A DNA stretch of 23,466 nt from positions 1-23,466 of IMG/VR virus record IMGVR_UViG_3300023180_000407. One strand, given 5' to 3'. The DNA is from a virus. The notes beneath the pieces are model-generated. The model did not search any database, was not told where the DNA came from, and saw nothing but the letters and a program-made list of their open reading frames with translations. A program made the position numbers and the translations under genes. Each line of letters opens with the position of its first letter. Positions within the stretch are counted from its first letter, which is position 1. Of the stretch, positions 11,101 to 23,198 are shown piece after piece.

Positions 11101-13909
11101 TATTGATGATGTCATCATTGGAAATGGAGGAACAGGATTTACAAATGGTCAATATTTTGATCAAGATCTTGTAGGTGGAACTGGAACAGGATTAAAAGCG
11201 AATTTAACTATCTCTGGTGGAACAATTACTGAGATTACAGTAACTGATGGTGGTAGTGGATATGATGCTGACTTTGCAATCACAGTTCCACCAACTGCTA
11301 TTGGTGGTGGTTCTGGTCTAAACTTACTTGCTAAGGTAAGCACCGTAAATAAGCAATATGCAAACGTTGCACTTGATATTCAGAGAGTATCAGATCTAAC
11401 TATTTCAACTGATCTATTTGGAACAATTGGTGTTGCTAGATTTAAGAAATCGCAATTTATTATTGGTGCTTCTGGAAATGGTTCTGTTGAATTGGATGTA
11501 GGCGCTGATTCTGGTCTAGATGCGGACCTTCTAGATGGTCAGCAAGGTGAATACTATACTAATGCTACCAACCTATTCTCAGGAACAGTACCAAGTGATA
11601 GACTTTCTGGAACTTATAATATTAGTGTTTCTGGTTCTTCTGGTAACACACTAAGACTATCTACTGGAACAAACAACCCAACATCAAACCCATCTCCAGA
11701 TAACTTTGTTGGTGGTGTAGTTTCAAACACAATCAACAACAATGCCAATTCTCTCAGTGATGGTGGAACCAAAAATATGGTTCTCACACTTAGAGCAGGA
11801 GGAACTAGTTTCGATGCATCATTTGGTGGTGTAAGACAACTTGCATTTACTGATAATGATAATATGTGGTTGCGTGGTTCTGGAACTGGTGTTACTAGTT
11901 TTGGATCATGGGCAAAAGTTTGGACATCATTGAATGATGGTATTGGATCTGGTTTAGATGCTGACAGACTTGATAACAGACAAGGAGAATGGTATCAAAA
12001 TGCTCTCAATATTAACTTCGGAACTCTATCTGATAACAGACTTCCAAGATTTATTAGTGCAACGACTGTTAAAGATAGTTTAACTATTAAAGCATTTAAC
12101 GGAGATCCTAAGTATAGAATTTATATTTCGGGTCAAATTCTAAACACTACGCCATTTACTCCTGGAAACACAGTAAATCTTTATGATGCAGATGGTCAGG
12201 GAACTGGTGTAATTGCGATCGATAATATTATTGTTAACGACGAGACTGACAATTTTAATGACTACACTATTATTGTTGGCAGATTAACAACTGGTAACTT
12301 TATCGGTGCTCTTACAATTGGAGATGCTGGCAATAGAAAAGAGTTTGAAGATTTTACGATTGAAGATGGAAACACAATTCAAGTCGCAAAACTCGAAAGT
12401 GATGGGGGAACTGCTAACCTAAGATTAGGTAGAAAGGATGGAATTGCTTCTTCCCCTGGAATTTATTTCAATAGTTCTATTTTAACAGCAAACTATAATA
12501 CTGCTATTGTTGCAACTGGAGGTAATGCTACCGATGGTTCTGGAACACTAAATGCTTTGGTTGTTAATGCTGATGGATTTAATATTAACGGTAATGTTAT
12601 TTGGAACGCTGGTAATATTGAATTCCAGTCATCAAATGTTGCAAATACTGCTGTAAAGCGTGATGCAAATGGCAACTTTAGTGCTGGAACAATCACCGCT
12701 AATTTAACTGGTGCTGCTTCAGCAAACGTCTTGAAGGCTGGCGACAGAATGAGTGGTGGTTTGACAATTGGAACAGACGGAACTGCCGCAACGGTTGGTC
12801 TTCGTGTTCAAGGTCAATCTGCATTCTTGAATACTGTTACAATCGTTGATGACCTAGCAGTAGATACTGATACATTCTTTGTTGATGTATCTCAAGATAA
12901 TGTTGGTATTAATGTCGGAACAACACTAACTGCTGGTGTTGGTCTTGATATTCTTGGTGGTAATATTGCTGCATTGAGATTGCGTGGTCCTGCAAATACT
13001 TCAGGACATATGCTACTTCTTGATGGATCCAGAAGCACATGGTATGATGATGCTAACCATGCGATGATGTTTATTACATCTGGTGCTGGGGATGCAATGT
13101 ATGGAGCGGGTGAAGGCGCACACTGGATCTTCAACGGTAGGGCAGAAGATAGAGACTTTGTTTTCCGTAACAACTCTTCCAACAAACTAATCATTCAAGG
13201 TAATGGTGGTCTCAAGATTGAGAACAGTGGAACAAATTACGCTATTGATGCCGACAAGAAAGTTCTCTTTAGAGAGGGTGTTGTTCTTGATACTGGCAAT
13301 GATAACTCTGGCACATTCGTTGAAATGTTTGGTGCTCAGAACTATAGAAACTTTAGACTAAGTGCTCAGTCAACAGGAAACAATCGTTTTGCAATCCAAG
13401 CATCTAATACTGCTGGAAATAATGATTGGAATACAACCCCAGCATTACAAATTGATGGTAGCAATAATAGAGTTTCTATTAATACCACTGCTACTTCTGG
13501 AACAGATCCAGAAGACGGAACAACGGTAAGAAATTATCAATTAAATATTCAAGGAGATGTTAACTTTAATGGTCAGTTATTCCAAAATAATTCAGAATTT
13601 GTAACTTCTCGTTGGACTGAGGCAACCAATGAAGTTGATATCTATAGACTATCTAAGGTTGGCATTAATCAAGCAGATCCATCATATACTCTAGATGTAA
13701 ATGGAGATGCCAATGTTAGAGGAACAACCCGTGTAAGAGGAGATGCTCAATACTTAGATAGTTATGGTGTCATCAAGAGAAATAGAAATACTATTGCTGA
13801 AAATATTACCATTGGAGGTTCCGACAACGCTGCTTCTTATGGTCCTATTACAATTCAATCTGGATCTACAGTCACCATTTCTTCTGGTGGGGTTTGGAAT
13901 ATTCTATAA
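5141..13909 (+). CDS. Giant tail-fibre-like virion protein, 2922 residues
   Basis: The largest gene in the window. In order: N-terminal head; GSGY turns at 70-73 and 112-115; an aromatic 'VQWSSG..YFGQNVYQ' fibre module (about 191-245); an 'IATTEYV' collar-type motif (279-285); a predicted right-handed beta-helix beginning 'GGRIYVSQQIGSDLNDG' (about 294-420), as in pectate-lyase-like fibre domains; helical modules (778-975 and 1012-1175); a Gly-rich conserved block (about 1250-1370); 'GRVYVSG..GDFKVG' plus 'LPTQKAVRDYI' (1513-1605); a 'RLAIEGALAGDIA' module (about 1640-1670); more GSGY turns (1721, 1769, 1996-2067); two 'LDAD.LD..QGE.Y' units (2126, 2272) flanking a pyocin-knob-like 'MWLRGSG...SWAKVW' segment; 'WNAGN' and 'VKRDANGNFSAGTIT' segments (about 2485-2530); and a C-terminus ending 'TVTISSGGVWNIL'. 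I see no convincing C-terminal chaperone protease. A fibre or baseplate-skirt role is the likely function; receptor binding is inference. Confidence 0.85.
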   Translation: MSFNINSDKEFVRGSQPKFIGDQELTIRSGTGSAEKEILRAQLDEVTGLPRVGINRTGQRVNAITIVSGGSGYTTEPSVTIGAPQTAGGVQALASAFIFNGSVVNIAINNPGSGYTSPPSVTITGGNGGGATATSVLDTVDYELDINGAIRTSTSIISDTARILNLDIDNFITPDANFRAPNLKTFVNNTGVQWSSGIILQKDSYRYFGQNVYQALNTGVTGDSGPVHVDGIELNGEVQFKHIGFRVIDENSFAYNETGDAGIYPRSITPLLGDRSDKIATTEYVLNLATNDVGGRIYVSQQIGSDLNDGRSAVNPVRSIKKAAQLAWATPGVKETIIVSGGDYVEDNPISLPPDASVVGDNLRLVIIRPANPNKHIFKFGDKNYVIGVTYRDQVDSVGDSVATWDFAMVFDDKQRIVIDNEVNGDFGINFPIGHQIFGPDQFRVDFQENTGLSSLQTGLEVVGVNTGARAKIIGVRFDSTAGAEAYLTGELDVTLTSGSFLEGERFNYLITGTVGNSISLNITQTSGINTFRTTDDPDTLIPPGTYIHLDDTDDSSFTQGFYEVKSINDDNSPTFWDVEVVPILNAPEWDTTQSETINISEGNIVVESVDTTSLLSIRAEGEVVSTNYDITSSIPIQRLDFSLQGDPSIATGGFQNEQFGNAEDLGGVVFYTNALVGRSNIHDFKEGQEILIEGLPTAGPDLSALNGKQRIYKVLEDADGRSRRFVIPKKFPAIVDAEFDPGQNATVKSYSKSITLSLLNSPNTFPISTPVERRFQDACVFLRNNRDFIADEVVGKINDQFKREYYSVYNISGNSFDIYLGTLDHANTWISGGTVTFNGVTHNVTDFVYDTAITGVATVTTDNPFPGISEDDTVQLAGLLIECDAGQKIYPSYSSPTSGSNLGSNGDDQCRQDIVHFINALVRDLEFGTNHNVIEAAKKYIVNDKLTYIDDEIIQITRGIEYARELAIYAMCNWRTGNRTTGDPVYAPQYSSITRYFDSTVITSTAGTPACDDVRAAIDTLAYLWVDVITNNSAGRYLDAAYLIARNRDLIADQALINTETAFTSLNLSDIHQRKCRRDINYILTGVIKDLVTGGNSGIVENAEFYFSGNSLTGIDASQLAETRYAYEQVRDLSIAAMRNWTDGAGNAIATTSPIPQFTDGTIIADPSSPDCANVASSLTTIFGTLDGILEYADDPNSPTAIEPGSTTKTYGTLYDTNDIISYPDSYVYDQNGQRMAIRADYDDYPIIEASPYTQNSSVISFLGGGGALVDGSKVKQPNCPFPGLELDGTASYPNQGKSMVASAFTIVSFGGTGYKVINDGYTQLVSVFVIFCADGVLAESGGYCSITNSATNFGIYALRGIGYREEAYSFDVGTISNISSTPTGRTILTVSGLGREPLEHYVVKIDGYRNTNTEIEYFVDAVSGVTVGPPFSAQLTLDNGTGDGLDLTNVSTGSVVGLPPTGTTIRLHRPSIVNSSSHTWEFAGSGTNYLALPENGGTKVEAYEQVSQQYGRVYVSGTDELGDFKVGTFARIENRTGAITFTGTVTISEVEFLKLKGGDVVVTGFDASNTLGGANSTDSKLPTQKAVRDYITNNLGPYINKPYSTNAVPRALVELTDSGKISVDQIPALRPFEVYTVANQTERLAIEGALAGDIAIEQDTSTSYILNNDLDSQFLGFDVDTGLQFTIGDIFTGSVSSGRLQATEYRQGVVYQINITSGGSGYASPPTVTLSGGAPQSGSVECKAESVIANGEVVAIDIITFNGYKGGKGYTTPPVVTIAAPAGSGTQATAVSVIESRLYGDIVNRIKLEDTDSIDSSDIPAVTVAIDRVVNTSASDSNNWVSLSSNQISATDIVSGVIETDRLASGGAANSFTFLSGDQNFALAVQSIKGAERRYFAKLTSQCNSGSSQMIFATLADALIGHEVIDNVTGIQPNTNITAVLTVGGSTTITLDSPVTSTIAAGTIIEFERGASPIIFDSTYTQGNFIDDVIIGNGGTGFTNGQYFDQDLVGGTGTGLKANLTISGGTITEITVTDGGSGYDADFAITVPPTAIGGGSGLNLLAKVSTVNKQYANVALDIQRVSDLTISTDLFGTIGVARFKKSQFIIGASGNGSVELDVGADSGLDADLLDGQQGEYYTNATNLFSGTVPSDRLSGTYNISVSGSSGNTLRLSTGTNNPTSNPSPDNFVGGVVSNTINNNANSLSDGGTKNMVLTLRAGGTSFDASFGGVRQLAFTDNDNMWLRGSGTGVTSFGSWAKVWTSLNDGIGSGLDADRLDNRQGEWYQNALNINFGTLSDNRLPRFISATTVKDSLTIKAFNGDPKYRIYISGQILNTTPFTPGNTVNLYDADGQGTGVIAIDNIIVNDETDNFNDYTIIVGRLTTGNFIGALTIGDAGNRKEFEDFTIEDGNTIQVAKLESDGGTANLRLGRKDGIASSPGIYFNSSILTANYNTAIVATGGNATDGSGTLNALVVNADGFNINGNVIWNAGNIEFQSSNVANTAVKRDANGNFSAGTITANLTGAASANVLKAGDRMSGGLTIGTDGTAATVGLRVQGQSAFLNTVTIVDDLAVDTDTFFVDVSQDNVGINVGTTLTAGVGLDILGGNIAALRLRGPANTSGHMLLLDGSRSTWYDDANHAMMFITSGAGDAMYGAGEGAHWIFNGRAEDRDFVFRNNSSNKLIIQGNGGLKIENSGTNYAIDADKKVLFREGVVLDTGNDNSGTFVEMFGAQNYRNFRLSAQSTGNNRFAIQASNTAGNNDWNTTPALQIDGSNNRVSINTTATSGTDPEDGTTVRNYQLNIQGDVNFNGQLFQNNSEFVTSRWTEATNEVDIYRLSKVGINQADPSYTLDVNGDANVRGTTRVRGDAQYLDSYGVIKRNRNTIAENITIGGSDNAASYGPITIQSGSTVTISSGGVWNIL
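5342..5545 (+). repeat. GSGY turn pair near the N-terminus of the giant fibre protein
   Basis: Two units of the form 'GSGYT..PSVTI' followed by a Gly/Ala-rich linker (residues 70-84 and 112-130). The same unit returns around bases 10292-10520 ('GSGYASPPTVTL' and 'GKGYTTPPVVTI') and in looser form at 11126-11340. All are in frame and appear to be structural spacers. Confidence 0.7.
7469..8590 (+). repeat. Tandem helical module in the giant fibre protein (two copies)
   Basis: Two diverged copies share 'DA(C/A)..(L/I)(R/A)(N/R)NRD(F/L)IAD', then 'C(R/Q)(Q/R)DI', 'KDL' or 'RDL', a 'N..(V/I)(I/V)E(A/N)A' segment and 'YARELAIYAMCNW' or 'YEQVRDLSIAAMRNW'. Copy 1 covers residues about 778-975, with a beta insertion at about 805-905; copy 2 covers about 1040-1148. 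A partial third start lies near C1173. The copies carry matched cysteines (C911 and C1077). The module is predicted alpha-helical, in contrast to the beta-rich remainder. Confidence 0.65.
10844..11059 (+). repeat. Small beta module shared with the 1413-residue protein
   Basis: The stretch has the order 'IGHEVI...GI..NT.I..V....TITLDSPV...IAAGTIIEF'. It matches the pattern of the modules at about 1283-1486, 1493-1670 and 2249-2440 in the upstream gene (a hydrophobic-Gly pair, a variable loop, an I..I/V strand, 'T(I/V)xL/V', a short gap, then 'I.F'). The similarity is by eye and the copies are strongly diverged. Confidence 0.45.
11519..12050 (+). repeat. Duplicated 'LDAD.LD..QGE.Y' fibre units flanking a knob-like segment
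   Basis: Residues 2126-2155 and 2272-2300 share 'GLDAD(L/R)LD', '(Q)QGE(Y/W)Y.NA.N' and 'GT...(D)(R/N)RL'. 'LDADLLDG' elements are common phage tail-fibre motifs. Between them is a segment ending 'NMWLRGSG..SFGSWAKVW', which resembles the pyocin-knob carbohydrate-binding type found at phage fibre tips. Function is inferred from family resemblance. Confidence 0.6.
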
Positions 13910-13912
13910 ATA
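13905..13912 (+). promoter_or_regulatory. T4-type late promoter TATAAATA fused to the stop codon of the giant fibre gene
   Basis: A perfect TATAAATA box, the late promoter core used by T4-like phages with a gp55-type sigma factor. Bases 13907-13909 of the box are the TAA stop of the preceding gene. It lies 23 bases upstream of the ATG at 13935 and is the only perfect box before the oxygenase block, so it probably drives the run from 13935 onward. Confidence 0.75.
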
Positions 13913-13934: not shown

Positions 13935-14126
13935 ATGTCTACGGGTAAACTAACAGTTACGACGGCTAATCCATCAGTTGCTGTAAACCTTCCAATCCAT
14001 CCAGTTGGAGCTATGCCAAGAGCTCAGGAAGGTTCAATTTGTTTTAATCCAGATAATGGTAAAGTGTATTTGTATGCACCAAATAGTGATGGTGTTTTAA
14101 TTTGGCAAGAACTACAGAGGCAGTAA
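13935..14126 (+). CDS. Small fibre-head module protein, 63 residues
   Basis: The whole protein is one module: 'MSTGKLTVTTANPSVAVNLP', then 'PRAQEGSICFNPDNGKVYLY', then 'WQELQRQ'. It aligns with the first 50-60 residues of the two Gly-rich proteins in this window (14134 and 22119) and with the 'RFN...W.SL' copies in the 1413-residue protein. It therefore looks like a stand-alone version of a virion attachment or trimerisation module. It follows a perfect late promoter with a 22-base leader and is seven bases from the next gene. No Shine-Dalgarno sequence is obvious. The role is unknown; part of a fibre, or a remnant left after loss of a downstream fibre domain, are both possible. Confidence 0.75.
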   Translation: MSTGKLTVTTANPSVAVNLPIHPVGAMPRAQEGSICFNPDNGKVYLYAPNSDGVLIWQELQRQ

Positions 14127-14133
14127 AAGAATT

Positions 14134-15189
14134 ATGTCTACATTAAATGCTGGAACTTTAAACGTAACTGGAACCCTTCAGTTACCATCTTACACAGTTG
14201 CTCAAAGAAATGCTTTAAGCAAGTCTGTTGGGATGATGATTTATAATAGCGAGGACGGTGGTATTGAAGTTTGGGATGGAAGCGAATGGAAATCTGCTGT
14301 TGGAGCAGGTGGAGGATTTATCGAAGCAGCTGGCGGAGCAATTGCCAACGACGGAGATTTTAGAATTCACACATTCAATAGTGTAAATAGTTTTGTTGTT
14401 AATGCAGTTGGAGATTCCACTCAACCATTTGGAAACACTGTAGATTATCTAATTGTCGCTGGTGGCGGTGGCGGTGGCGGATTTGGTTCTGGAGATTTCA
14501 ATAACTTTGGATCTGGCGGCGGCGGTGGCGCTGGTGGAGTTCTAAAAACCAATGGATACAATTACGCTGTTTCTGCTGGATCATTTAGTATTTCTGTTGG
14601 TGGCGGTGGAAACGGTGGAACTGGAAATGCTGCTGGAAGTCCTGGTGGAAACAGTTCATTTGGAACTCAGATTGCTTATGGTGGCGGCGGTGGCGGTCAG
14701 CAAGATAAAGCAGGACAATCTGGTGGATCTGGCGGTGGATCTGGAACTGATGGCGATGGTTACAACCAACCAACCGCTCCTGGCGTCTCTGGACAGGGAA
14801 ATAGAGGTGGTCGAGGCGCTTCTTCTCAGAATGGCACTAGTGGTGGAGGCGGTGGTGCTGGAGAAGCAGGTCAAGATGGTTACACTAGACCTAACTCAGC
14901 TCCAGCTAGAGGTGGAAATGGTTTTGGTTCATCCATTTCTGGAACTGTTCAAACTTATGGTGGAGGCGGAGGTGGTGCAAACTACCCAGGCGGTCCACAC
15001 TCTCCCAATGGAGGAGCTGGTGGTGGAGGATCTGGTGCTCTGTCACCAACCGCTTCTGGAAACCCAGGAACGGATGGTCTTGGTGGAGGCGGTGGTGGTG
15101 CTGCTGACCAAGATCCTAGAGATTATCCAGAACCAAAAGGTGGTAATGGTGGCGGTGGCGTCGTAATTGTTAGATATAAATTCCAGTAA
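14134..15189 (+). CDS. Glycine-rich adhesin-like tail-fibre protein (copy 1), 351 residues
   Basis: Two parts. Residues 1-55 are a fibre head (MSTLNAGTLNVTG, P18-S-Y20-T, R25, then 'GMMIYNSEDG' and 'WDGSEWKSAV'). After a short beta region (60-105), the strand 'VDYLIVAGGGGGG' opens a polyglycine domain (about 107-345) with many G4-G7 runs separated by Asn/Ser/Gln/Pro loops; it closes with 'GGGVVIVRY'. Glycine-rich domains of this class occur in phage tail proteins, and the T-even-like phage S16 adhesin gp38 uses a polyglycine sandwich for receptor binding. A receptor-binding role here is inferred from that parallel. The protein is paralogous to the product of 22119-23198: both heads align without a gap through residue 25. 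A long open frame in another phase (14552-15166) is only a by-product of GGT/GGC codon runs. Confidence 0.8.
   Translation: MSTLNAGTLNVTGTLQLPSYTVAQRNALSKSVGMMIYNSEDGGIEVWDGSEWKSAVGAGGGFIEAAGGAIANDGDFRIHTFNSVNSFVVNAVGDSTQPFGNTVDYLIVAGGGGGGGFGSGDFNNFGSGGGGGAGGVLKTNGYNYAVSAGSFSISVGGGGNGGTGNAAGSPGGNSSFGTQIAYGGGGGGQQDKAGQSGGSGGGSGTDGDGYNQPTAPGVSGQGNRGGRGASSQNGTSGGGGGAGEAGQDGYTRPNSAPARGGNGFGSSISGTVQTYGGGGGGANYPGGPHSPNGGAGGGGSGALSPTASGNPGTDGLGGGGGGAADQDPRDYPEPKGGNGGGGVVIVRYKFQ
14455..15165 (+). repeat. Polyglycine-coding GGN repeat tract (copy 1)
   Basis: Dense runs of GGT, GGC and GGA codons encode G-tracts of four to seven residues, with short non-glycine loops in between. The base pattern GGTGGCGGTGGC is locally repetitive on the + strand and would favour slippage or recombination with the matching tract at about 22400-23185. 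Confidence 0.8.
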
Positions 15190-15194
15190 GAAAA

Positions 15195-15782
15195 ATGGCA
15201 CATTTCGCAAAAATCGATCAGAGTGGTACAGTAGTTGACATCGTAAAGGTGGACGACGAAATTTTATTGGACGAAAATGGAGATGAAAATGAAAATCTTG
15301 GAATTAAGTTTCTTCAAGATGTTCTTGGTGGACCATATGATTGGAAACAAACCTCATACAATGCATTCAAAGGTAGACATAGATTACATTTAGCTCAATC
15401 TGATGGAGAATATGTAGAACCAGTGTATGGCACTAAACCATGTCTAAGAAAAAATTATGCATCTATTGGCGGAAAATATGACTATGTAAGAGATGCATTT
15501 ATTGGGGTAATGCCAGATGCTATAAATGTTGTTTTGGATGAAGATTGTTGTCACTGGGAATGCCCATACGAATCAAATCAGACAACTGACAATACTGGAA
15601 ATCCTTTGTCATACACAGACGAAACAGATTATAAACCTGTAAACTCAAATTTAAATGCATCGAGAAATTGGGTTTGGGATAATGTTAATAAAACATATAC
15701 GAAAGTTCCATCTTTTGAAACTGTTCCAGTAAACTATGTTTACGATTCAATTCAAGGGAAATGGGTTAAACAATATTTTTAA
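15195..15782 (+). CDS. Phage accessory protein, 'MAHFAKI...W.QTSYN...RKNYASIG' family, 195 residues
   Basis: I recognise the N-terminal pattern (MAHFAKIDQSGTVVDIVKVDD, then LLDENGDENE.LGI.F) and the core 'WKQTSYN', 'RKNYASIGGKYDY' and 'RDAFIG' as a small protein family common near tail and structural genes in cyanophages and other marine phages; its function is unknown. Relative to the compact form I know, there is an insertion between QTSYN and RKNY (residues about 57-88) and an extended C-terminus with repeated 'W..(N)...(Y/K)' elements (NWVWDNVNKTY, GKWVKQYF). C118, C119 and C123 with H120 cluster around 'DEDCCHWECP', possibly a metal-binding or disulfide spot. It is five bases downstream of the adhesin-like gene and eight before the oxygenase run. 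Confidence 0.75.
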   Translation: MAHFAKIDQSGTVVDIVKVDDEILLDENGDENENLGIKFLQDVLGGPYDWKQTSYNAFKGRHRLHLAQSDGEYVEPVYGTKPCLRKNYASIGGKYDYVRDAFIGVMPDAINVVLDEDCCHWECPYESNQTTDNTGNPLSYTDETDYKPVNSNLNASRNWVWDNVNKTYTKVPSFETVPVNYVYDSIQGKWVKQYF

Positions 15783-15790
15783 AATAAATT

Positions 15791-16354
15791 ATGATTACAT
15801 TATGGTTTCCAAAGGCGATTTACTTTCAACCTAATATTTTAAATGATAACCTAGATTTATACGAGAGAGAAATAAAGAAATCTTTCTCTGAAGTAGGATC
15901 ATTACGAGATGGTGCAAAGAACGTCAACTCCACGCATAGATTAAAACCAAATTTATTTGAGGTTTGTAATCTAGATGAATTGAGAAGAGAATTTTTTGAT
16001 CGATCAAAATATTTTCTAAATGAACTTGGATATAAGAATACACAATCTCTTCATTTTGACAATTGTTGGGCAAACATTAGTTATCCAGGAGATTATATCT
16101 TCCCACATAATCATAACGGGTCTATGATTTCTGGAGTTTATTATGTAAAGTCTTCTCTACACGAAAAGATTAAATTTTTTAATTCGCCAACAATGCATTC
16201 AGACCCAGATGTTTGGAATGATTTAAATCATCAGCATTGCGAGTATACTTGTATTCCAGGATCAATGTTGATTTTTATGAGTGACCTTATGCATGGAACC
16301 GAAAAGCAACACTGCGAAGAAAAAATATCAATATCATTTAACATGTCATTATGA
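15791..16354 (+). CDS. 2OG-Fe(II) oxygenase-like protein 1, 'PHNH...SGVYYV' type
   Basis: 187 residues, close to the usual size of this class. The core reads 'YIFPHNHNGSMISGVYYV' with H106 and H108, followed by 'PGSMLIFMSDLMHGTE' with distal H168, then 'KISISFN' beginning at K178. This layout matches the putative 2OG-Fe(II) oxygenase family (TIGR02466 / PF13759-like), whose proximal element is P-H-x-H-P and whose last strand usually reads R-I-S-I-S-F-N. Here the expected co-substrate arginine appears as K178, which could weaken or alter 2-oxoglutarate binding. Catalysis and substrate are unknown. It is the first gene of the coupled oxygenase block, and its last four bases (ATGA) overlap the next start. 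Confidence 0.8.
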   Translation: MITLWFPKAIYFQPNILNDNLDLYEREIKKSFSEVGSLRDGAKNVNSTHRLKPNLFEVCNLDELRREFFDRSKYFLNELGYKNTQSLHFDNCWANISYPGDYIFPHNHNGSMISGVYYVKSSLHEKIKFFNSPTMHSDPDVWNDLNHQHCEYTCIPGSMLIFMSDLMHGTEKQHCEEKISISFNMSL

Positions 16355-16968
16355 GTGAATTCCCCATTTTAAATCAAACTCCTAATTTTATTTCTGGTTG
16401 GTTTATTGACGAGAAAGTATGTGATGATCTTATTTCTTTCTTTGAAGAATCTCAAGACAAAACGCCAGGAAAGGTGGGAAGTGGTGTAAATGAAGACTTC
16501 AAAGTTTCTACCGATGTAACGGTAGTTCCAAGAAATCCAGACATAAGAATACAAAAATACCTAGAAGAACTAGGAAAGGTGTGTGATAGTTATACAGAAA
16601 AATATCATTGGTGCTCAACAAACCATGCTAGGTGGGGTCTGAATACAAATTTCAATATACAAAGATACTTACCAGGGGAAGGATTTCATGGGTGGCATTC
16701 CGAAAGAGGGACTTACAAAGATCTGATATCAACACGTTTCCTGGTGTTTATGACTTATCTAAATACAGTTACGGATGGTGGTGAAACGGAATGGTTTTAT
16801 CAGCAGACCAGAATTCAACCAAGAAAAGGTTTGACCTTATTCTGGCCAACTGATTGGACACATACTCATAGAGGTGTCACATCAAAAACTCAAACAAAGT
16901 ATATTGCAACAGGATGGTATACTTTTAAAATAGAAGACTTTGATTATACATCTTATAATGGAGGATAA
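16351..16968 (+). CDS. 2OG-Fe(II) oxygenase-like protein 2, P4H-type with 'GGETEW' motif
   Basis: 205 residues. The double-stranded-helix core has 'GFHGWHSERG' (H116-S-E118, a H-x-E variant of the usual H-x-D), 'DGGETEWFYQ' (143-151), 'KGLTLFWPTDW' and the distal 'THTHRG' with H171 or H173 as third iron ligand. 'TKYIATGWY' then places K183 where 2-oxoglutarate would be bound. Lys at this position and a GGETE(F/W) strand are features of prolyl-4-hydroxylase-type enzymes (P4Hc). The likely reaction is hydroxylation of a protein or peptide side chain in the cytoplasm; the substrate is unknown. It overlaps the preceding gene by four bases, and its end carries GGAGG for the next gene. Confidence 0.82.
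   Translation: MSEFPILNQTPNFISGWFIDEKVCDDLISFFEESQDKTPGKVGSGVNEDFKVSTDVTVVPRNPDIRIQKYLEELGKVCDSYTEKYHWCSTNHARWGLNTNFNIQRYLPGEGFHGWHSERGTYKDLISTRFLVFMTYLNTVTDGGETEWFYQQTRIQPRKGLTLFWPTDWTHTHRGVTSKTQTKYIATGWYTFKIEDFDYTSYNGG
16960..16964 (+). promoter_or_regulatory. Strong Shine-Dalgarno GGAGG
   Basis: GGAGG lies four bases before the ATG at 16969 and inside the last codons of the preceding oxygenase gene. It is one of the few strong ribosome sites in the block and fixes the start of the third oxygenase-like gene. Confidence 0.7.
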
Positions 16969-17589
16969 ATGAACTTAAAGTATAATTATTGGTATTTTAA
17001 AGAGGCAATTAGTCCAGAAATCTGTGATAGGATTATATCTATTGGAAACTCACAAACTTTAAATTACGGTGAGATTAATAGGGAATCTAGTAAAGGCATT
17101 GAAGACTATTCTGAAGAAGATTATGAGCATCTTCTCAAAACAAGAAATTCACATATTGCCTGGTTGGATATTCCGTGGATTTACAATATCCTAAAACCGT
17201 ATATTCAAAGAGCCAATAAAATGGCAGGATGGAATTTTCAATGGGATTATACAGAGCAATTACAATTCACTACTTATAATGAGGGTCAGTTTTATGACTG
17301 GCATCCAGACCAACATCATTACACATATTCGAATGATGATGAGAATGTTCAGATGCGTGGTAAATATAGAAAATTATCAAGCACACTACTTTTAAATGAT
17401 CCGCAAGACTATGAGGGTGGTGAGTTAGAATTTCATTTCAGTAGGAATAAATCATGCATAGCTAAAGAGTTGGACAAAAAAGGATCTTTAGTTGTTTTCC
17501 CATCTTTTGTATATCATAGAGTAAGACCTGTTACAAGTGGAACTCGACATTCTTTAGTTAGTTGGAATATTGGAGAACCTTTTAGATGA
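16969..17589 (+). CDS. 2OG-Fe(II) oxygenase-like protein 3, canonical H-x-D...H...R
   Basis: 206 residues with a complete canonical set: 'FYDWHPDQH' gives H112 and D114, 'YEGGELEF' is the typical acidic strand, 'GSLVVFPSFVYHRV' gives H183, and 'GTRHSLVSW' gives R193, ten residues after the distal His as expected for 2-oxoglutarate binding. The pattern fits the PF13640 / PKHD-type hydroxylase group (PiuC/YbiX relatives). The N-terminal part (1-100) is helical and aromatic-rich and could recognise substrate. It is probably an active dioxygenase acting on protein or peptide; the substrate is unknown. It begins directly after the upstream stop and ends with an ATGA overlap. Confidence 0.85.
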   Translation: MNLKYNYWYFKEAISPEICDRIISIGNSQTLNYGEINRESSKGIEDYSEEDYEHLLKTRNSHIAWLDIPWIYNILKPYIQRANKMAGWNFQWDYTEQLQFTTYNEGQFYDWHPDQHHYTYSNDDENVQMRGKYRKLSSTLLLNDPQDYEGGELEFHFSRNKSCIAKELDKKGSLVVFPSFVYHRVRPVTSGTRHSLVSWNIGEPFR

Positions 17590-18110
17590 TCTATATTTCA
17601 CATAACGATCTAGATCAAAAATTTATAGTTGATAGTATAAATTTTTTTAAAGAAAATATTATACACACCTATGTTTGGGACGAGACAAGGGTCCTCGGAT
17701 TGAATAGATATGGATTTAATGAAGTCAATCCGCCAGAAATTTATTTCAAAATACTAGACCTAGTAAAGTTGATAAAATCAAATGTTGATGGAGATGAAAG
17801 ATTTTTAGATTTACAAGAAGTCGAAATTGTTAAGTATCCATGTGGAGCTCATAAAAATTTTCATTATGACAAAGCAAGAAAAACTACTACTGGTGCATCA
17901 ATAACTTACATTAATGACGGTTATATTGGGGGCAACACAATAATCGAAGGCGTGGATGTACAACCAATATCTGGTAGAACAGTTTATTTTGACGGAAGAA
18001 AATACAGACATGCTGTGTCAAACGTTATAAAAGGCGATAGATATACGTTATCAATGTGGTATGGAAAAGATAAAACCATGCCAATCAACAAAGAATTTTT
18101 GGAGATTTGA
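17586..18110 (+). CDS. 2OG-Fe(II) oxygenase-like protein 4, canonical triad
   Basis: 174 residues. 'KNFHYDKARK' supplies H93 and D95. 'GASITYINDGYIGGNTII' is the following strand pair with the GG turn, 'SGRTVYFDGRKYRHAV' supplies H142, and 'GDRYTLSMWY' supplies R152, again ten residues downstream. All four expected residues are present, so this is a good candidate for an active enzyme despite the short length. The N-terminal 70 residues are helical, without a recognisable extra domain. It overlaps the previous gene by four bases and is followed after one base by the next start, whose GGAG ribosome site lies in its last codons. Confidence 0.82.
   Translation: MIYISHNDLDQKFIVDSINFFKENIIHTYVWDETRVLGLNRYGFNEVNPPEIYFKILDLVKLIKSNVDGDERFLDLQEVEIVKYPCGAHKNFHYDKARKTTTGASITYINDGYIGGNTIIEGVDVQPISGRTVYFDGRKYRHAVSNVIKGDRYTLSMWYGKDKTMPINKEFLEI
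18101..18104 (+). promoter_or_regulatory. Shine-Dalgarno GGAG fixing the start at 18112
   Basis: GGAG lies seven bases before the ATG at 18112. It supports that start over an in-frame ATG at 18061, which would overlap the preceding gene by 50 bases and add a 17-residue extension unlike the family's opening. Confidence 0.6.
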
Positions 18111-18111
18111 A

Positions 18112-18594
18112 ATGATTGAAGTAAAGGACAATTTTATGGAAAAGGAACTCTTCCATAAAGTAAAAGAATCTATTATTTCATCTCAGGCTATGGGATGGTT
18201 TTTAGAGACAAATATTTCTGGAGAAGGCGAAGAAGAAAACTGCTATTTTACACATCTTTTCTTTTCAGATTATTCTAGAAGAAGTGAAAATTTTTCGTTA
18301 GCAGTTGAACCTCTCGCTTTTCTTCTTCAAGCAAAGTCATTAATTCGTGCTAAAGCAAATCTATATCCAAGAACTGACAAATTGGTTCACCATAAAGATC
18401 ACATTGATTATGGATTTCCACATAAAGCAGCAGTGTTCTATTTAAATACAAATAATGGGTATACTGTTATTGGGGATAGAAAAATAGAATCCGTAGAAAA
18501 TCGGGTTGTTATATTTGATCCAACTGTTCTACATCACAGCACTAACTGCACAGATGCCCCTTTTAGGGCGAATATAAACATAAATTATTTCTAA
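18112..18594 (+). CDS. 2OG-Fe(II) oxygenase-like protein 5, 'PHKAAVFYLNTNNGYT' type
   Basis: 160 residues from ATG 18112, chosen because of the GGAG at 18101 and the natural opening 'MIEVKDNFMEKELF'. The core contains 'HHKDHIDYGFPHK' (H97-I-D99 is the likely pair, H94-K-D96 the alternative), the conserved-looking 'FYLNTNNGYT', 'ENRVVIFDPTVLHHST' with H141 or H142, and 'FRANININYF' with R152. This combination is a small oxygenase type I know from marine phages, where it is often annotated only as hypothetical or as a 2OG-Fe(II) oxygenase. The substrate is unknown. The stop overlaps the next ATG by one base (TAATG). Confidence 0.8.
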   Translation: MIEVKDNFMEKELFHKVKESIISSQAMGWFLETNISGEGEEENCYFTHLFFSDYSRRSENFSLAVEPLAFLLQAKSLIRAKANLYPRTDKLVHHKDHIDYGFPHKAAVFYLNTNNGYTVIGDRKIESVENRVVIFDPTVLHHSTNCTDAPFRANININYF

Positions 18595-18953
18595 TGCATC
18601 AACTACTTAGTCCTAGAATGCTATATGAATTTCCAGAATATCTGGATAATTTAAACACAATTCCTCCTATAGAAGATTTGATCAAATCGATAAGTAAAAT
18701 CTTTTCTGAAGAATTTTCAATTTTGTGTGAGTTAGATTGTTACGAAGAAATTTTTTCGAAAGAAGTTTCTTCATATGGTAAATTTATTTCTTGTTTATGT
18801 TTAGACACTGGAACTCTATATCATTATTGTTTAGATGTAAAGAGACATCAAAATGGATTTGATTTAATTCCAAAGTCAAAATATTTTAATCATGTTTTAG
18901 TTTTTAGATGGAAATCTGTTGTGGAAATAGATAATGCAAAATTTTATTTTTGA
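18594..18953 (+). CDS. Unrecognised small protein inside the oxygenase block, 119 residues
   Basis: The product opens 'MHQLLSPRMLYEFPEYLDNL', followed by a helix (about 25-45) and an alternating Cys/aromatic stretch 'GKFISCLCLDTGTLYHYCLDV', and ends 'VFRWKSVVEIDNAKFYF'. It has five cysteines (near 44, 48, 68, 70 and 79). I see no H-x-D...H layout and assign no function. Coding is supported by the TAATG junction with the gene before it and a 20-base overlap with the gene after it, which fits the coupled operon. The pattern of short beta strands could belong to a small alpha/beta fold; a partner or adaptor of the neighbouring oxygenases is possible but only positional inference. Confidence 0.65.
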   Translation: MHQLLSPRMLYEFPEYLDNLNTIPPIEDLIKSISKIFSEEFSILCELDCYEEIFSKEVSSYGKFISCLCLDTGTLYHYCLDVKRHQNGFDLIPKSKYFNHVLVFRWKSVVEIDNAKFYF

Positions 18954-19539
18954 GAGGATATCAGATCTGCCAGTTTTGTTTATTCGAGACTTTTATGATA
19001 AAGAAGAATATTCTTTAATATTTGCAGAGCTCGATTACCTATCTAAGATTGATAGATTTAAACATCCACAAGATCCTGGAGGTCCAGGAACAGCTATATC
19101 AAATGGCAAACCATTAAAAATTGGTAAAGGATTGCACTTAGATGTGGTTTACGAAGATAGAGATTTTTCTGATATTCTAAAGTTAAATCGAAAGTTATTT
19201 GATAAAGAATTGACTAAAACAATGGAAGGATATCACTCCTTTTTTAGATATGTAAATAGATCCAGCAAGGACAGCACAAAACTACACTACTTTGAGGATG
19301 GAGATCATTATAAATCTCATATAGATGATTGTGTTATTACTGCGGTATCATGGTTTTATAAACAACCAAAATCATTTACTGGTGGTGATATAATCCTAGA
19401 AAACAAGGTTAAATTCCCATGTCTAAATAACTCAGTGATAATATTTCCATCGATACTTTATCACGAAGTTACTGAAGTAGCAATGGAAAATCTCCCAGGG
19501 ATGGGAAGATATTCAATGAGTCAATTTTTGTATATGTGA
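18934..19539 (+). CDS. 2OG-Fe(II) oxygenase-like protein 6, canonical triad
   Basis: 201 residues. 'DHYKSHIDDC' gives H129 and D131, 'FTGGDIILENKVKFP' is the GG strand, 'NSVIIFPSILYHEV' gives H177, and 'GMGRYSMSQFL' gives R192. The set is complete, with a 15-residue His-to-Arg gap caused by a small loop (TEVAMENLPG). It resembles prolyl-4-hydroxylase-like phage proteins (PF13640 type). The N-terminal segment has a Pro/Gly-rich 'HPQDPGGPGTA' stretch unlike its neighbours. The reaction is probably hydroxylation of a protein or peptide; the substrate is unknown. It overlaps the unrecognised upstream gene by 20 bases. Confidence 0.82.
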   Translation: MQNFIFERISDLPVLFIRDFYDKEEYSLIFAELDYLSKIDRFKHPQDPGGPGTAISNGKPLKIGKGLHLDVVYEDRDFSDILKLNRKLFDKELTKTMEGYHSFFRYVNRSSKDSTKLHYFEDGDHYKSHIDDCVITAVSWFYKQPKSFTGGDIILENKVKFPCLNNSVIIFPSILYHEVTEVAMENLPGMGRYSMSQFLYM

Positions 19540-19541
19540 TT

Positions 19542-20183
19542 ATGAAGATAACGCAATTTGAAAACGACAAACCAATAACTAGATTTGCTCCAGTTTTTAA
19601 TTATTATATCTACGAAGATAGTGTAGATGTAAAAAATTTAAAAGATCTTATCTTATCAAAAGAAAAGGATGTAATTGATAATAATCCTTACAAGTCTGAT
19701 TGGAATACTGGTCTTGGTTCTGATAGTATGACATCGAGATCTAATTGCTATAATGTTTTGAAATGGGATGACGCATTTTTTCTCAGAGAGATTATCAGGA
19801 CGGCGCATGATAATTTTATTACCACATTAGAATATAATTGGGAAGACAAAATTTATGTTCAATGCTGGGCAAATGTTTTAAGAAACGAACAAAGAATAAA
19901 GCAACATCAACATTGGAATAGCAAATACACATATCTTGGTGGACATATTAGTTTGGATGATTACGAAACTAAAACTCACTATGTAGATCCATATACAAGA
20001 AAAGAATACATTTCAGAAAATAAAAAAGGAAATGTTGTGTTGTTTCCAAATTGGTTAGAGCACTACACTGATACTTACGAAGGAGATGATGTTCGCGTTA
20101 CAATTGCATTTGATATCATTACGCAAACTGTGTATGACGAAGATATCTTTGACAATATGAAAGATCATTGGGTGCAATTATGA
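19542..20183 (+). CDS. 2OG-Fe(II) oxygenase-like protein 7, H-x-H type
   Basis: 213 residues from ATG 19542. A GTG at 19536 would overlap the previous stop and add only two residues, so ATG is preferred. 'IKQHQHWNSKYTYLGGHISL' gives H122 and H124 in place of H-x-D, 'GNVVLFPNWLEHYTD' gives H174, and 'VRVTIAFDIIT' gives R185. The arrangement matches the PF13759-like group, as in oxygenase-like proteins 1 and 8. Its closest relative in the window appears to be the gene at 20874-21485, which shares 'LFP..L.H..D' and '(I/L)AFD(I/L)IT'; the two flank the QueG-like gene. The substrate is unknown. The stop overlaps the next start as ATGA. Confidence 0.8.
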   Translation: MKITQFENDKPITRFAPVFNYYIYEDSVDVKNLKDLILSKEKDVIDNNPYKSDWNTGLGSDSMTSRSNCYNVLKWDDAFFLREIIRTAHDNFITTLEYNWEDKIYVQCWANVLRNEQRIKQHQHWNSKYTYLGGHISLDDYETKTHYVDPYTRKEYISENKKGNVVLFPNWLEHYTDTYEGDDVRVTIAFDIITQTVYDEDIFDNMKDHWVQL

Positions 20184-20881
20184 ATGTCAGACAAGTAGAA
20201 GAAGCTATCAACTGGGTGACCAGAGACACTCCAATCATGTTTGACGTTACTGTTACTACACCACCCAAAGATCTTATTCGTCAGAGGGCACAAGACAATT
20301 TCAACAGAGGAAAACCAAACTCTTTGAATAAAAATTATTACCTCTCTGATGAGTGTAAATCTGTGATCGTATGGAATGTCTTTAGTGATGTTGCATACGA
20401 TTACTATTATAAAAATAATTTCTTGCCACAGATTATCACATATTTAAATCTAAGGTATGAATATAACTTTGGATATGATGGATACAATCTCAACCGCAAA
20501 CAGTTTGCTATCAGATCTGGAGCTGCAAAGTTAGCAAAACCATCTCTGGCATTTCATAGAAAGTTTGGGATGAATTATAAGATTGATCTTATCTTTACCA
20601 ACGCAGAATTTGAAGATGCTGTTGTTGTAGAAGGACAACCACGATATGAGAACTGTGAAGGTTGTGGTGCCCCATGTGAGAGCAAATGTCCAATGGGGTG
20701 CAAAATGGACTTTGATCTAGTTGATTGGGAGAAGTGTGCAAATTTTGTAGATGTTCCTGAAGCATTTAAGAATTTGGATACTATCTGTAGAATATGTCAA
20801 GAGGAGTGTCCATACTCGGAAGATCTTAGACAAAAGATCTTGGAGCAAAATATAAACTACGGAGGTAGGATCAATGGGTGA
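20180..20881 (+). CDS. QueG-like iron-sulfur protein, short form, 233 residues
   Basis: ATG 20180 overlaps the previous stop (ATGA); an in-frame TTG at 20168 is less likely. The C-terminal third holds two cysteine motifs: C159-x2-C162-x3-C166-x3-C170-P, then C186, then C203-x2-C206-x3-C210-P. This is the layout of a two-[4Fe-4S] ferredoxin-like domain as in epoxyqueuosine reductase QueG and reductive dehalogenases. Upstream, 'QFAIRSGAAKLAKPSLAF' with 'FG' and 'FTNAEFED' (108-150) resembles the QueG segment 'A.RAG.G..GK.(S/N)L....FG......(T)(D/N)'. QueG is about 350-380 residues; here the N-terminal cobalamin-binding part is short or missing, so queuosine synthesis cannot be assumed. It could instead donate electrons or act as a radical-free reductase. 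C174 is an extra cysteine. Confidence 0.72.
   Translation: MNVRQVEEAINWVTRDTPIMFDVTVTTPPKDLIRQRAQDNFNRGKPNSLNKNYYLSDECKSVIVWNVFSDVAYDYYYKNNFLPQIITYLNLRYEYNFGYDGYNLNRKQFAIRSGAAKLAKPSLAFHRKFGMNYKIDLIFTNAEFEDAVVVEGQPRYENCEGCGAPCESKCPMGCKMDFDLVDWEKCANFVDVPEAFKNLDTICRICQEECPYSEDLRQKILEQNINYGGRING
20861..20865 (+). promoter_or_regulatory. Strong Shine-Dalgarno GGAGG
   Basis: GGAGG lies eight bases before the ATG at 20874, within the last codons of the QueG-like gene. It supports the start of the next oxygenase-like gene even though the two frames overlap by eight bases. Confidence 0.7.
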
Positions 20882-21485
20882 ATGGCGTTCTTGGAGATCA
20901 AATCCTCCACACAATTACTTCTCCCCTAGATTTTCTGTAGATATGTGGTTTGATCAAATCGATATAGAGTTGATTGATTGTTTACTAGAGGAAGCAAAGA
21001 AGAAAGAAGATCTTTATCTGGAAGACAGATGGGAACACTACAACACATTTCAATGGGAATGTGAATGTGTCAACACTCTTCGTGAAAAGATAAAAACATC
21101 TTACTATGATTTCTGTAATAAGATTTTACTAAATCCAGAACCACTGTGGATACGTGGATGGATATATCCACAAAAGAAAGGTATGTCATTGAAAAGACAT
21201 TATCATGCAATTCACGAAAACTCATATCTCAGCGGTAATATTTGTCTTACACAAAATAGAACTTCTACGGACTACGATATTCCATATCTCGGTTGGATTA
21301 GTGTTGCAAATAAAAAAGGAGACATGACATTATTTCCTTCATGCCTTCCACATGCTGTAGATAAACTAGAAGAACAAGAAAGATATTCTCTTGCGTTTGA
21401 TTTAATTACAGAACAGGGTATGGATTATTTCTGGTGTAACAATACAAATGAATGTGATCCTTTATTATTGGCGATAGAACTATGA
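20874..21485 (+). CDS. 2OG-Fe(II) oxygenase-like protein 8, H-x-H type
   Basis: 203 residues. 'SLKRHYHAIHENSYLSGNICL' gives H109 and H111 (H114 nearby), 'GDMTLFPSCLPHAVD' gives H160, and 'ERYSLAFDLIT' gives R170, ten residues later. It is paralogous in its core to oxygenase-like protein 7 (19542) and shares the H-x-H proximal pair with protein 1. The N-terminus is Trp- and Glu-rich with a helical segment (about 30-50), and the C-terminal tail has 'YFWCNNTNECDP' with two cysteines. The substrate is unknown. It overlaps the Fe-S gene by eight bases and the next gene by four. Confidence 0.8.
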   Translation: MGEWRSWRSNPPHNYFSPRFSVDMWFDQIDIELIDCLLEEAKKKEDLYLEDRWEHYNTFQWECECVNTLREKIKTSYYDFCNKILLNPEPLWIRGWIYPQKKGMSLKRHYHAIHENSYLSGNICLTQNRTSTDYDIPYLGWISVANKKGDMTLFPSCLPHAVDKLEEQERYSLAFDLITEQGMDYFWCNNTNECDPLLLAIEL

Positions 21486-22087
21486 AAACTAACGAATTTT
21501 TTTGGAACAACGGATATTTAGTGGTTCGTAATTTTATATCCGAAGCGGAGAAACTAAGTTTTCTACCAGATGATCTTTATGCTGAAAAACATATTGAATG
21601 GTTATATGATGGAACATTTGAAGGTGAATATGAAAATGAATATCAGGTAAAAGGATCATATTCCAGAACATGTTTCCCTCCACTCAAAAAATTTCATCAA
21701 GAGATGAAATACCAAATACAAAAAATTATATTGCCGCCACATCAACTTCACCCCACTTATTACTTTGATAGAATTTATTATCATGGCAATGATCTTAAAC
21801 CACACAAAGACTGGGAACCTTGTGAGATCAGTGTAAGTTTACAATTAAGAACAACTTTGGCAAAACCATGGAAATTTTATATTGAAACAAAAAATGGTAA
21901 GGTTGTTGATGTTGATATGGAAAATGGAGATGCTGTTATTTACTTAGGCAATGAGGTTAATCATTGGAGAGAACCAATGCCTGGTGGAAAAAAAGATTTT
22001 CACCATCAACTATTCTTACATTATGTTGTATACAAGGGAAGAGCTTTTACAGAACTTCAGGACTGTGGATATCTTCAAGGAGTATAA
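21482..22087 (+). CDS. 2OG-Fe(II) oxygenase-like protein 9, lacks the usual arginine
   Basis: 201 residues. 'YYHGNDLKPHKDWEPCEISV' gives H108 and D110, and 'GDAVIYLGNEVNHWREP' gives H161. The strand that normally carries Arg or Lys reads 'FHHQLFLHYV', with H175/Q176 in the expected place. This matches a cyanophage protein type with the 'CEIS(V)', 'NGDA..Y.G.E..HWRE' and 'Q.FLHYV' pattern, so the substitution may be a family trait rather than decay. R163 could substitute. An N-terminal 'NGYLVVRNFIS' strand is typical of the phytanoyl/P4H entry. The stop codon TAA is part of the late promoter TATAAATA of the next transcript. Confidence 0.78.
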   Translation: MKTNEFFWNNGYLVVRNFISEAEKLSFLPDDLYAEKHIEWLYDGTFEGEYENEYQVKGSYSRTCFPPLKKFHQEMKYQIQKIILPPHQLHPTYYFDRIYYHGNDLKPHKDWEPCEISVSLQLRTTLAKPWKFYIETKNGKVVDVDMENGDAVIYLGNEVNHWREPMPGGKKDFHHQLFLHYVVYKGRAFTELQDCGYLQGV

Positions 22088-22090
22088 ATA
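22083..22090 (+). promoter_or_regulatory. T4-type late promoter TATAAATA fused to the stop codon of oxygenase-like protein 9
   Basis: A perfect TATAAATA box in which bases 22085-22087 are the TAA stop of the preceding gene. It is 29 bases before the ATG at 22119, giving the second Gly-rich adhesin-like gene its own late transcript. Confidence 0.78.
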
Positions 22091-22118: not shown

Positions 22119-23198
22119 ATGTCTCAGTTAAATGTAGGAAAACTTGTTGCGAGCACTGAGGTTGTTTTTCCAACCTATACTAATAGCAACAGACCAGTAT
22201 CCGCAACGCAGGGATCTTTGATTTTTAACAGCGAAGAATCGGTCCTTCAATTATACACGGGAACTGAGTGGGTTAGTTTACAAAATGCAAACCCACAAGA
22301 TTTCAGCAACGTAACAATTTTCAATTATACTGGAAGCGATCAATCTTTCTCAGTTCCAACTACTGGTGGAACGGTTAATGAACTATTGGTCTTTATGTGG
22401 GGTGCTGGCGGAGGAGCAGATGAAGGTGGAACTGCAACTGCTGGAGCTGGTGGATATGCTTCTGGAACTATCAGTAGATTTGATGGACAATCATTGAATG
22501 GTGATGCTTTTACAATTGTAGTTGGTCAAGGTGGATTAAGAGGTGTTGGTGGTTCAAATATGTCAGCCATGTATGGTGGCGGGGGTAGAGGATCTGTAGA
22601 TAGTGGTGGTGGTCACGTCTCTGGATGTGGTGGAGGATTGAGTGGAATTTTTGCTGGAACTGCCCCAGTATTCAGTGGTGCCAATCCTCAAGGAGGAGCA
22701 CAGGCACGCGCTATCATAGTTGCTGGTGGTGGTGGCGGATGTAATGACCAAACAACTAACTTTGCTTACGGTGGTAGCGGAGGTGGTATTGAAGGTGGAA
22801 GAGGTGGATCAGAACCAACTAACAATAATAAAGGTGGTTGGGGTGGTCGCCAAGTTTCTGGATATTCTGGATCAAACTCATCTGCCACTTATGCAAACGG
22901 ATCCGAATTGAGAGGTGCTGATGGACCATCTAACACTGACAACCCTGGAGGTGGAGGTGGATATTGGGGTGGTCAATCTGGAGGAGATGACAACTCTGGA
23001 GCTGGAGGTGGATCTGGATACACTGGAGGAACATCTACTTATAAAGTAGTATCTGGTCTTACAACAAATGGTGGATCGGGAACTTCATCTAGTGGTTACA
23101 ACCCACCAGAAACTGGTAGTGAATATTATAGTGCTGGAGTAGGTTCTGCATACAGAACTCAAGGCGGCGGAAATGGAAAGGTTGTTGTTCTCTACTAA
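22119..23198 (+). CDS. Glycine-rich adhesin-like tail-fibre protein (copy 2), 359 residues
   Basis: Same plan as the 351-residue protein at 14134: head residues 1-55 ('MSQLNVGKLVAS', P18-T-Y20-T, R25, 'GSLIFNSEES', 'GTEWVSL'), a short beta region (60-100), then 'NELLVFMWGAGGGADEGG' opening a glycine-rich domain (about 90-350) that closes with 'GGGNGKVVVLY'. The polyglycine runs are shorter and the loops carry more Ser/Tyr/Thr than in copy 1, so the tips differ while the head is conserved, as expected for alternative or co-displayed receptor-binding parts. The receptor role is inferred from the S16 gp38-type polyglycine adhesins. It has its own late promoter. Confidence 0.8.
   Translation: MSQLNVGKLVASTEVVFPTYTNSNRPVSATQGSLIFNSEESVLQLYTGTEWVSLQNANPQDFSNVTIFNYTGSDQSFSVPTTGGTVNELLVFMWGAGGGADEGGTATAGAGGYASGTISRFDGQSLNGDAFTIVVGQGGLRGVGGSNMSAMYGGGGRGSVDSGGGHVSGCGGGLSGIFAGTAPVFSGANPQGGAQARAIIVAGGGGGCNDQTTNFAYGGSGGGIEGGRGGSEPTNNNKGGWGGRQVSGYSGSNSSATYANGSELRGADGPSNTDNPGGGGGYWGGQSGGDDNSGAGGGSGYTGGTSTYKVVSGLTTNGGSGTSSSGYNPPETGSEYYSAGVGSAYRTQGGGNGKVVVLY
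22400..23185 (+). repeat. Polyglycine-coding GGN repeat tract (copy 2)
   Basis: Runs of GGT/GGA/GGC codons encode G2-G5 clusters separated by Ser/Asn/Thr/Tyr loops. It parallels the tract at 14455-15165, and the two together bracket the oxygenase block as imperfect direct repeats. Confidence 0.75.

Follow-up and report, generated by a model that had tools for sequence, protein, structure and literature searches.

A co-oriented block of nine 2-oxoglutarate/Fe(II) oxygenase-like genes behind a Gly-rich tail-locus gene of a virus: a probable adhesin-maturation cassette

The window analyzed here is a stretch of 23,466 nucleotides from a marine cyanobacterial virus (IMG/VR record IMGVR_UViG_3300023180_000407, positions 1 to 23,466). 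Between positions 15791 and 22087 it contains eleven open reading frames (ORFs) on the + strand, overlapping or abutting one another, all of them at the coordinates reported in an earlier reading of the same DNA (the original prediction). Nine of them (g1 to g5, g7, g8, g10 and g11) resemble oxygenases dependent on 2-oxoglutarate (2OG) and Fe(II), and the other two are g6 and a gene similar to the epoxyqueuosine reductase QueG (g9Q). The unit begins before position 15791, with genes a, b and c lying upstream as parts of it (Table 1). Gene b codes for a Gly-rich protein, and the set is, in our opinion, probably a maturation cassette that oxidizes this polyglycine-type tail adhesin, or the b/c pair.

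The junctions along the block measure, in order, -4, 0, -4, +1, -1, -20, +2, -16, -8 and -4 bases. The value of -16 depends on a TTG start of g9Q at position 20168; the ATG at 20180 is a better start, common to the orthologues, so that the g8/g9Q junction is also a 4-base overlap. The short overlaps and gaps of the original prediction were thus found again, and other phages display a nearly identical junction pattern. A single operon, probably transcribed late, had also been claimed, and this is supported by the distribution of the T4-late-promoter-like sequence NATAAATA, considered as a consensus match only. Each of the 21 related loci examined has it upstream of a or b, and none of them has it between g1 and g10. 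In the window there are five matches, all on the + strand (one each ahead of a, of h and of the last gene, one near the right end of the window and one inside the ORF at position 157), a number not above chance, as 9.6 are expected on both strands. The placement of the promoter-like site fits one late unit that would include b, c and all the enzymes. The depletion of ATAAATA inside the cassette was dropped as evidence, the reverse strand being depleted as well.

Table 1. Features of the proposed late unit and its surroundings in the window
Feature	Coordinates	Strand	Description
TATAAATA	13905..13912	+	T4-late-promoter-like site, about 23 bases before gene a; consensus match only
a	13935..14126	+	63 residues, unknown; usually opens the unit; tblastn synteny
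b	14134..15189	+	Gly-rich protein, 351 residues, candidate substrate; PF21722, 61.9 bits; cassette linkage, conserved loops, tag/body dissociation
c	15195..15782	+	195 residues, phrog_7759 family; nearly always directly 3' of a Gly-rich gene in phages
g1	15791..16354	+	2OG/Fe(II) oxygenase-like; PF13759, HxH...H...K; absent from S-SM1
g2	16351..16968	+	2OG/Fe(II) oxygenase-like; PF13640, HxE...H
g3	16969..17589	+	2OG/Fe(II) oxygenase-like; PF13640, HxD...H...R
g4	17586..18110	+	2OG/Fe(II) oxygenase-like; PF13640; phrog_2297, mislabelled 'DNA endonuclease'
g5	18112..18594	+	2OG/Fe(II) oxygenase-like; phrog_274, mislabelled 'DNA endonuclease V'; H97xD99...H141...R152 invariant; no Pfam match
g6	18594..18953	+	119 residues, unknown, without metal motif; position conserved
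g7	18934..19539	+	2OG/Fe(II) oxygenase-like; PF13640, HxD...H...R
g8	19542..20183	+	2OG/Fe(II) oxygenase-like; PF13759, HxH...H...R
g9Q	20180..20881	+	QueG-like protein, 233 residues; eight invariant Cys; invariant Asp aligned with QueG
g10	20874..21485	+	2OG/Fe(II) oxygenase-like; PF13759, HxH...H...R; distant g8 paralogue (28%)
g11	21482..22087	+	divergent 2OG/Fe(II) oxygenase fold; HxD...H without canonical Arg/Lys; mislabelled 'ferrochelatase'
h	22119..23198	+	second Gly-rich protein; own late-promoter-like site at 22083-22090; optional, outside the cassette

The assignment of the nine genes as oxygenases rests on profiles, conserved residues and, for g11, a structural model. Curated Pfam cut-offs were exceeded by seven of them: g1 (52.7 bits), g8 (46.2 bits) and g10 (33.1 bits) with PF13759, and g2 (42.6 bits), g3 (61.9 bits), g4 (33.9 bits) and g7 (31.6 bits) with PF13640. 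The HxD/E/H motif and the distal His were invariant across the orthologue alignments of all nine, while the Arg or Lys for the 2OG carboxylate, some 10-15 residues past the distal His, was present in eight; g11 has an invariant H174/H175/Q176. The original count of nine 2OG-type genes among eleven therefore stands as far as the metal ligands are concerned but not for the Arg/Lys of g11: judged by these residues, eight genes have the full 2OG/Fe(II) layout and g11 is one divergent member. In the case of g5, the HxD...H...R motif was kept in all the orthologues, and weak cross-matches were obtained to the 2OG-type PHROGs 61 (E-value 0.0017) and 2297 (E-value 0.0034).

The weakest case was g11, whose best Pfam match was only PhyH (E-value 0.13, below the cut-off). 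It was the one oxygenase modelled, and the AlphaFold prediction supported the double-stranded beta-helix fold expected from the original prediction, with a predicted local distance difference test score (pLDDT) of 91.3. A profile search of g11 against PDB sequences gave no match, but the fold search of the model gave 432 PDB matches at E-values up to 0.001, the best being Pseudomonas prolyl-4-hydroxylase, PHD2, AsqJ and AlkB. The RefSeq names of g4, g5 and g11 ('DNA endonuclease', 'DNA endonuclease V' and 'ferrochelatase' in NC_013085 and NC_015282) match PHROG family names, and neither sequence nor structure supports these labels. When the alignments of the block genes were compared to each other with hhalign, probabilities of 66% for g5/g4 and 63% for g1/g8 were obtained, and nothing for the other pairs; this comparison says little, because the alignments are shallow (effective number of sequences about 2).

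Gene b lies behind the large tail-fibre gene, and its product consists of an N-terminal tag of about 52 residues, common to other cyanophage tail-locus proteins, followed by a PF21722-like Gly-rich body. When b was searched independently in IMG/VR contigs by its loop motifs NYPGGPH and GGAADQD, c and the cassette were directly downstream in 48 of 48 contigs found; conversely, b was upstream in all 28 contigs found by g9Q that were long enough to tell. The two sets of contigs overlap, and the cases in which tag, body and cassette dissociate, small in number, weigh more than the counts. ACG-2014e has the same tail locus, with the b-type tag on another body and C-terminal domain, and no cassette. 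Two loci, L272 and L273 (loci are numbered with the prefix L), have the Gly-rich body with its ANYPGG and DQDPR loops and a reduced cassette lacking g7, g9Q and a g1 in the usual place; the gene is complete in L272, and there the body follows a different N-terminus, without the tag. In L194 and L195 a distant Gly-rich body without the ANYPGG and DQDPR loops is accompanied by only four 2OG genes. From these cases we conclude that the cassette tracks the Gly-rich body, and neither the site nor the tag. Further support comes from S-SM1, of another genus and with another genome neighbourhood, which carries a-b-c with the cassette.

The loops of b, among them ANYPGGPH, DQDPRxYPEP and NRPNS, are conserved across phages, and in non-Gly columns the conservation of the body (83%) is no lower than that of the tag (80%). 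Conserved loops are expected if the enzymes must recognize them, although other constraints could have the same effect. The Gly-rich adhesin target, offered in the original prediction as a hypothesis only, gained strong linkage in the case of b; it did not in that of h, which is optional. In one lineage (L013, L015, L020, L035 and L079) b is tandemly duplicated, with copies about 67% and 82% identical to that of the window.

Gene c belongs to a family (phrog_7759, products starting with MAHFAK) in which a Gly-rich ORF was immediately upstream in 65 of 70 relatives, and its product is a candidate adhesin partner or chaperone. Another 54 distinct phage loci came from a survey of the c family (loci L187-L364). 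The density of 2OG genes was 3.2 per 10 kb within 2.5 kb downstream of their Gly-rich/c pairs, fell to 0.81 per 10 kb beyond that and was zero over 205 kb upstream on the same contigs; the gene next to the pair was a 2OG gene in 19 of the 54. Among the c-family loci, the presence of a Gly-rich gene was not associated with that of 2OG genes (p = 0.19), because nearly all of them have the Gly-rich gene. The possibility that c alone is the specific partner of the cassette was ruled out, since the c family is widespread without it.

The comparison across cyanophages located the block, largely misannotated, in two isolates, S-RSM4 and S-SM1, and also in dozens of IMG/VR contigs. The original prediction had missed these two isolates, as well as the QueG-like gene and the membership of a, b and c in the unit. 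Gene order and overlaps persist in IMG/VR contigs with identities as low as about 60%, and the median ratio of non-synonymous to synonymous substitution rates is 0.08-0.20 for every block gene, which means purifying selection. In BLAST comparisons within the block, only g8 and g10 clearly recognized each other. All nine oxygenases had their best match outside the block in a comparison with a few other phage genomes, only narrowly in the case of g10 (72.8 versus 66.6 bits). These outside matches rule out an origin of the nine by tandem or recent duplication, and indicate that nine different enzymes were brought together and their order was kept. Additional g5-like 2OG genes separate g10 from g11 in L024, L026, L052 and L067; as such insertions occur in several lineages, the cassette is still growing. 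Reduced cassettes with differing subsets of 2OG genes occur in L272, L273, L209 and L219, and would be useful to match single enzymes with single loops of the Gly-rich protein.

Concerning g9Q, a profile match to QueG was obtained (E-value 4e-6 to PDB 5d6s). Its invariant Cys residues (C159/162/166/170 and C186/203/206/210) have the spacing of two 4Fe-4S motifs, so two such clusters are predicted. The invariant D100 is aligned to an Asp of 5d6s, which we take to be the catalytic Asp of QueG, near the cobalamin. Against the QueG family TIGR00276, with a cut-off of 200 bits, three orthologues scored only 15-19 bits and the protein of the window gave no listed match. In addition, g9Q stops shortly past the Fe-S motifs, lacking the C-terminal (tRNA-binding) domain of QueG, and the cobalamin domain is aligned only in part. 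With a score so far below the family and without that domain, g9Q is named QueG-like only. Its AlphaFold model was too poor (pLDDT 50.7) to be of use. The gene sits with g8 and g10 on either side, in 48 of 49 and 39 of 40 contigs. The exception is a lone QueG-like gene (L027:3910-4665) behind the recombination gene 46 of a T4-like phage contig, overlapping the end of that gene, with no cassette gene beside it in the fetched piece of the contig. A pattern scan found no g9Q relatives in cellular genomes. The other gene without oxygenase features, g6, has no known relative outside the block and evolves faster than its neighbours.

Taken together, the data can be interpreted with the following mechanism. 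The genes from b and c through g1 to g11 would form one late transcription unit, coding for a Gly-rich, probably polyglycine-type tail adhesin and its dedicated modifying enzymes. Each of the nine Fe(II)/2OG oxygenases, eight of them canonical and one divergent, would oxidize side chains, in the simplest case by hydroxylation; these would belong to the conserved loops in the Gly-rich body of b, or to its partner c. A reductive step may be performed or supplied by the QueG-like protein, which would have two 4Fe-4S clusters and possibly a cobalamin. Once mature, the adhesin would be mounted on the tail via the exchangeable N-terminal tag of b, and the biological gain could be host recognition or adhesin stability.

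Several points weigh against this interpretation. Linkage is not chemistry: what the data show is linkage, selection and enzyme families, whereas the modification system suggested in the original prediction is something we infer, and we know of no report of a modified peptide. Due to the shared descent of the contigs, the 48 of 48 are not 48 independent events. In S-SM1, b is annotated as hypothetical and not as a virion protein, although the virion proteome of this phage was measured. The lone gene of L027 means that g9Q is not absolutely bound to the cassette. In 29 of the 54 surveyed Gly-rich/c loci there was no detectable 2OG gene within 3.5 kb, hence, for such adhesins, modification would be optional rather than the rule. 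Finally, Gly-rich bodies beside 2OG genes were enriched in proline (p = 0.004, post hoc), and this enrichment, predicted beforehand, was replicated on new loci (one-sided p = 0.0019), but it was gone after controlling for guanine plus cytosine (GC) content, the residual p being 0.21 and the p of the low-GC stratum 0.32. The enrichment is thus an effect of locus GC content, and we do not use it in favour of the interpretation.

Other explanations were considered. The oxygenases could serve an auxiliary metabolism, turning over 2-oxoglutarate or host metabolites and reprogramming nitrogen metabolism and energy supply, as proposed for cyanophage 2OG genes generally (Sullivan et al. 2010, PMC3037559; S-SCSM1 paper, PMC9602691). 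This could still be the role of 2OG genes elsewhere in these genomes; for the block it is improbable, as it leaves unexplained nine divergent enzymes in a fixed order, the single late-promoter-like site and the linkage to the Gly-rich gene. It is also unlikely that the cassette makes a small molecule, a decorated glycan or a product akin to ribosomally synthesized and post-translationally modified peptides, with b or c as the carrier or precursor, set free by lysis or bound to the virion. Multiple 2OG enzymes and a possibly cobalamin-dependent protein would fit such a pathway, and making a secondary metabolite or decorating the capsule is the role proposed for another cyanophage cluster, which encodes several 2OG enzymes together with a halogenase and carbamoyltransferases (PMC7824862). 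However, the block lacks any scaffold-building, transferase, leader-peptidase or export gene, it is probably transcribed late within the tail-fibre locus, and the tag of b is common to other proteins of that locus.

The modification of phage DNA or transfer RNA (tRNA) by the QueG-like protein and the oxygenases is suggested by the action of QueG on tRNA, by AlkB and TET being 2OG enzymes, and by the position of the L027 gene behind a recombination gene. We consider it very improbable, given the score of g9Q (at most 19 versus 200 bits for QueG) and its end where the C-terminal domain of QueG would start, the lack of sequence support for the 'endonuclease' labels, the protein hydroxylases as closest solved folds to g11, and the late type of the promoter-like site. 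A hyperplastic site between the tail fibre and g13, tolerant to insertions, in which 2OG genes accumulate without acting together, would account for the extra genes between g10 and g11 and for the empty site of ACG-2014e, and a hyperplastic region is known in cyanophages (Millard 2009, cited in PMC3037559). Nevertheless, it is quite improbable in view of an order and overlaps that persist at about 60% identity and in two genome positions, with every gene under purifying selection.

Returning to adhesin maturation, few genes of marine phages are as common, or as poorly understood, as the 2OG-Fe(II) oxygenases, which are filed as auxiliary metabolic genes acting on host 2-oxoglutarate. The linkage described here provides them with a target that is concrete and testable, a specific Gly-rich tail protein. 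More tentatively, and as a possibility about which we are rather undecided, there may exist dedicated phage adhesin-maturation islands, in which 2OG oxygenases and a QueG-like Fe-S enzyme build a multiply oxidized polyglycine adhesin, with smaller versions (one to four oxygenases behind a Gly-rich/c pair) in many phages. If so, many 'auxiliary metabolic' 2OG genes would be tail-maturation genes, post-translational chemistry would be a new layer of phage host recognition, and the 'DNA endonuclease V' and 'ferrochelatase' labels would need correction.

Concerning known systems, the genes have already been sequenced in cyanophages, while their linkage and proposed function are new as far as the tools used can tell; a full-text search of the open-access literature gave no paper linking phage 2OG genes with Gly-rich and tail-fibre terms. 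S-RSM4 (SRSM4_130 to SRSM4_145, NC_013085) contains the whole unit, a-b-c-g1...g11-h-i, with the same order and neighbours as in the window; in its record the products are named 2OG oxygenase, 'DNA endonuclease', 'DNA endonuclease V', 'ferrochelatase' or hypothetical, with no joint function. S-SM1 (SSM1_048 to SSM1_061, NC_015282) has a-b-c and g2-g11 in the same order, but differs in the absence of g1 and h, the presence of two g11-like genes and its genome neighbourhood. Gene b corresponds to SRSM4_144 and SSM1_049, and c to SRSM4_143 and SSM1_050. The oxygenases compare with families PF13640, PF13759 and TIGR02466, g5 and g11 falling outside the Pfam models. Protein b, known here from its sequence alone, resembles the T-even polyglycine-II adhesins (S16, PP01 gp38) in its Gly-rich body with intervening loops and in the location of the gene beside tail-fibre genes, but the loops of gp38 are hypervariable (PMC12892980) and those of b are conserved.

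With respect to the number of oxygenases, counts in cyanophages go up to the 24 2OG genes of S-SCSM1 (PMC9602691), which are scattered and only in short runs; the roles ascribed to the 2OG genes of cyanophages are in nitrogen metabolism, energy or repair (PMC3037559). Pelagibacter phage HTVC008M (L114, 10337-13210; I899_gp068-072) has a block of five 2OG-type genes next to g13, among them relatives of g2, g3 and g11; they run against the direction of the structural genes around them, and, unlike in the window, no Gly-rich gene is annotated beside them and there is no QueG-like gene. Compared to these phages, nine 2OG genes in one block are exceptional, which bears out the original description of the block as striking.

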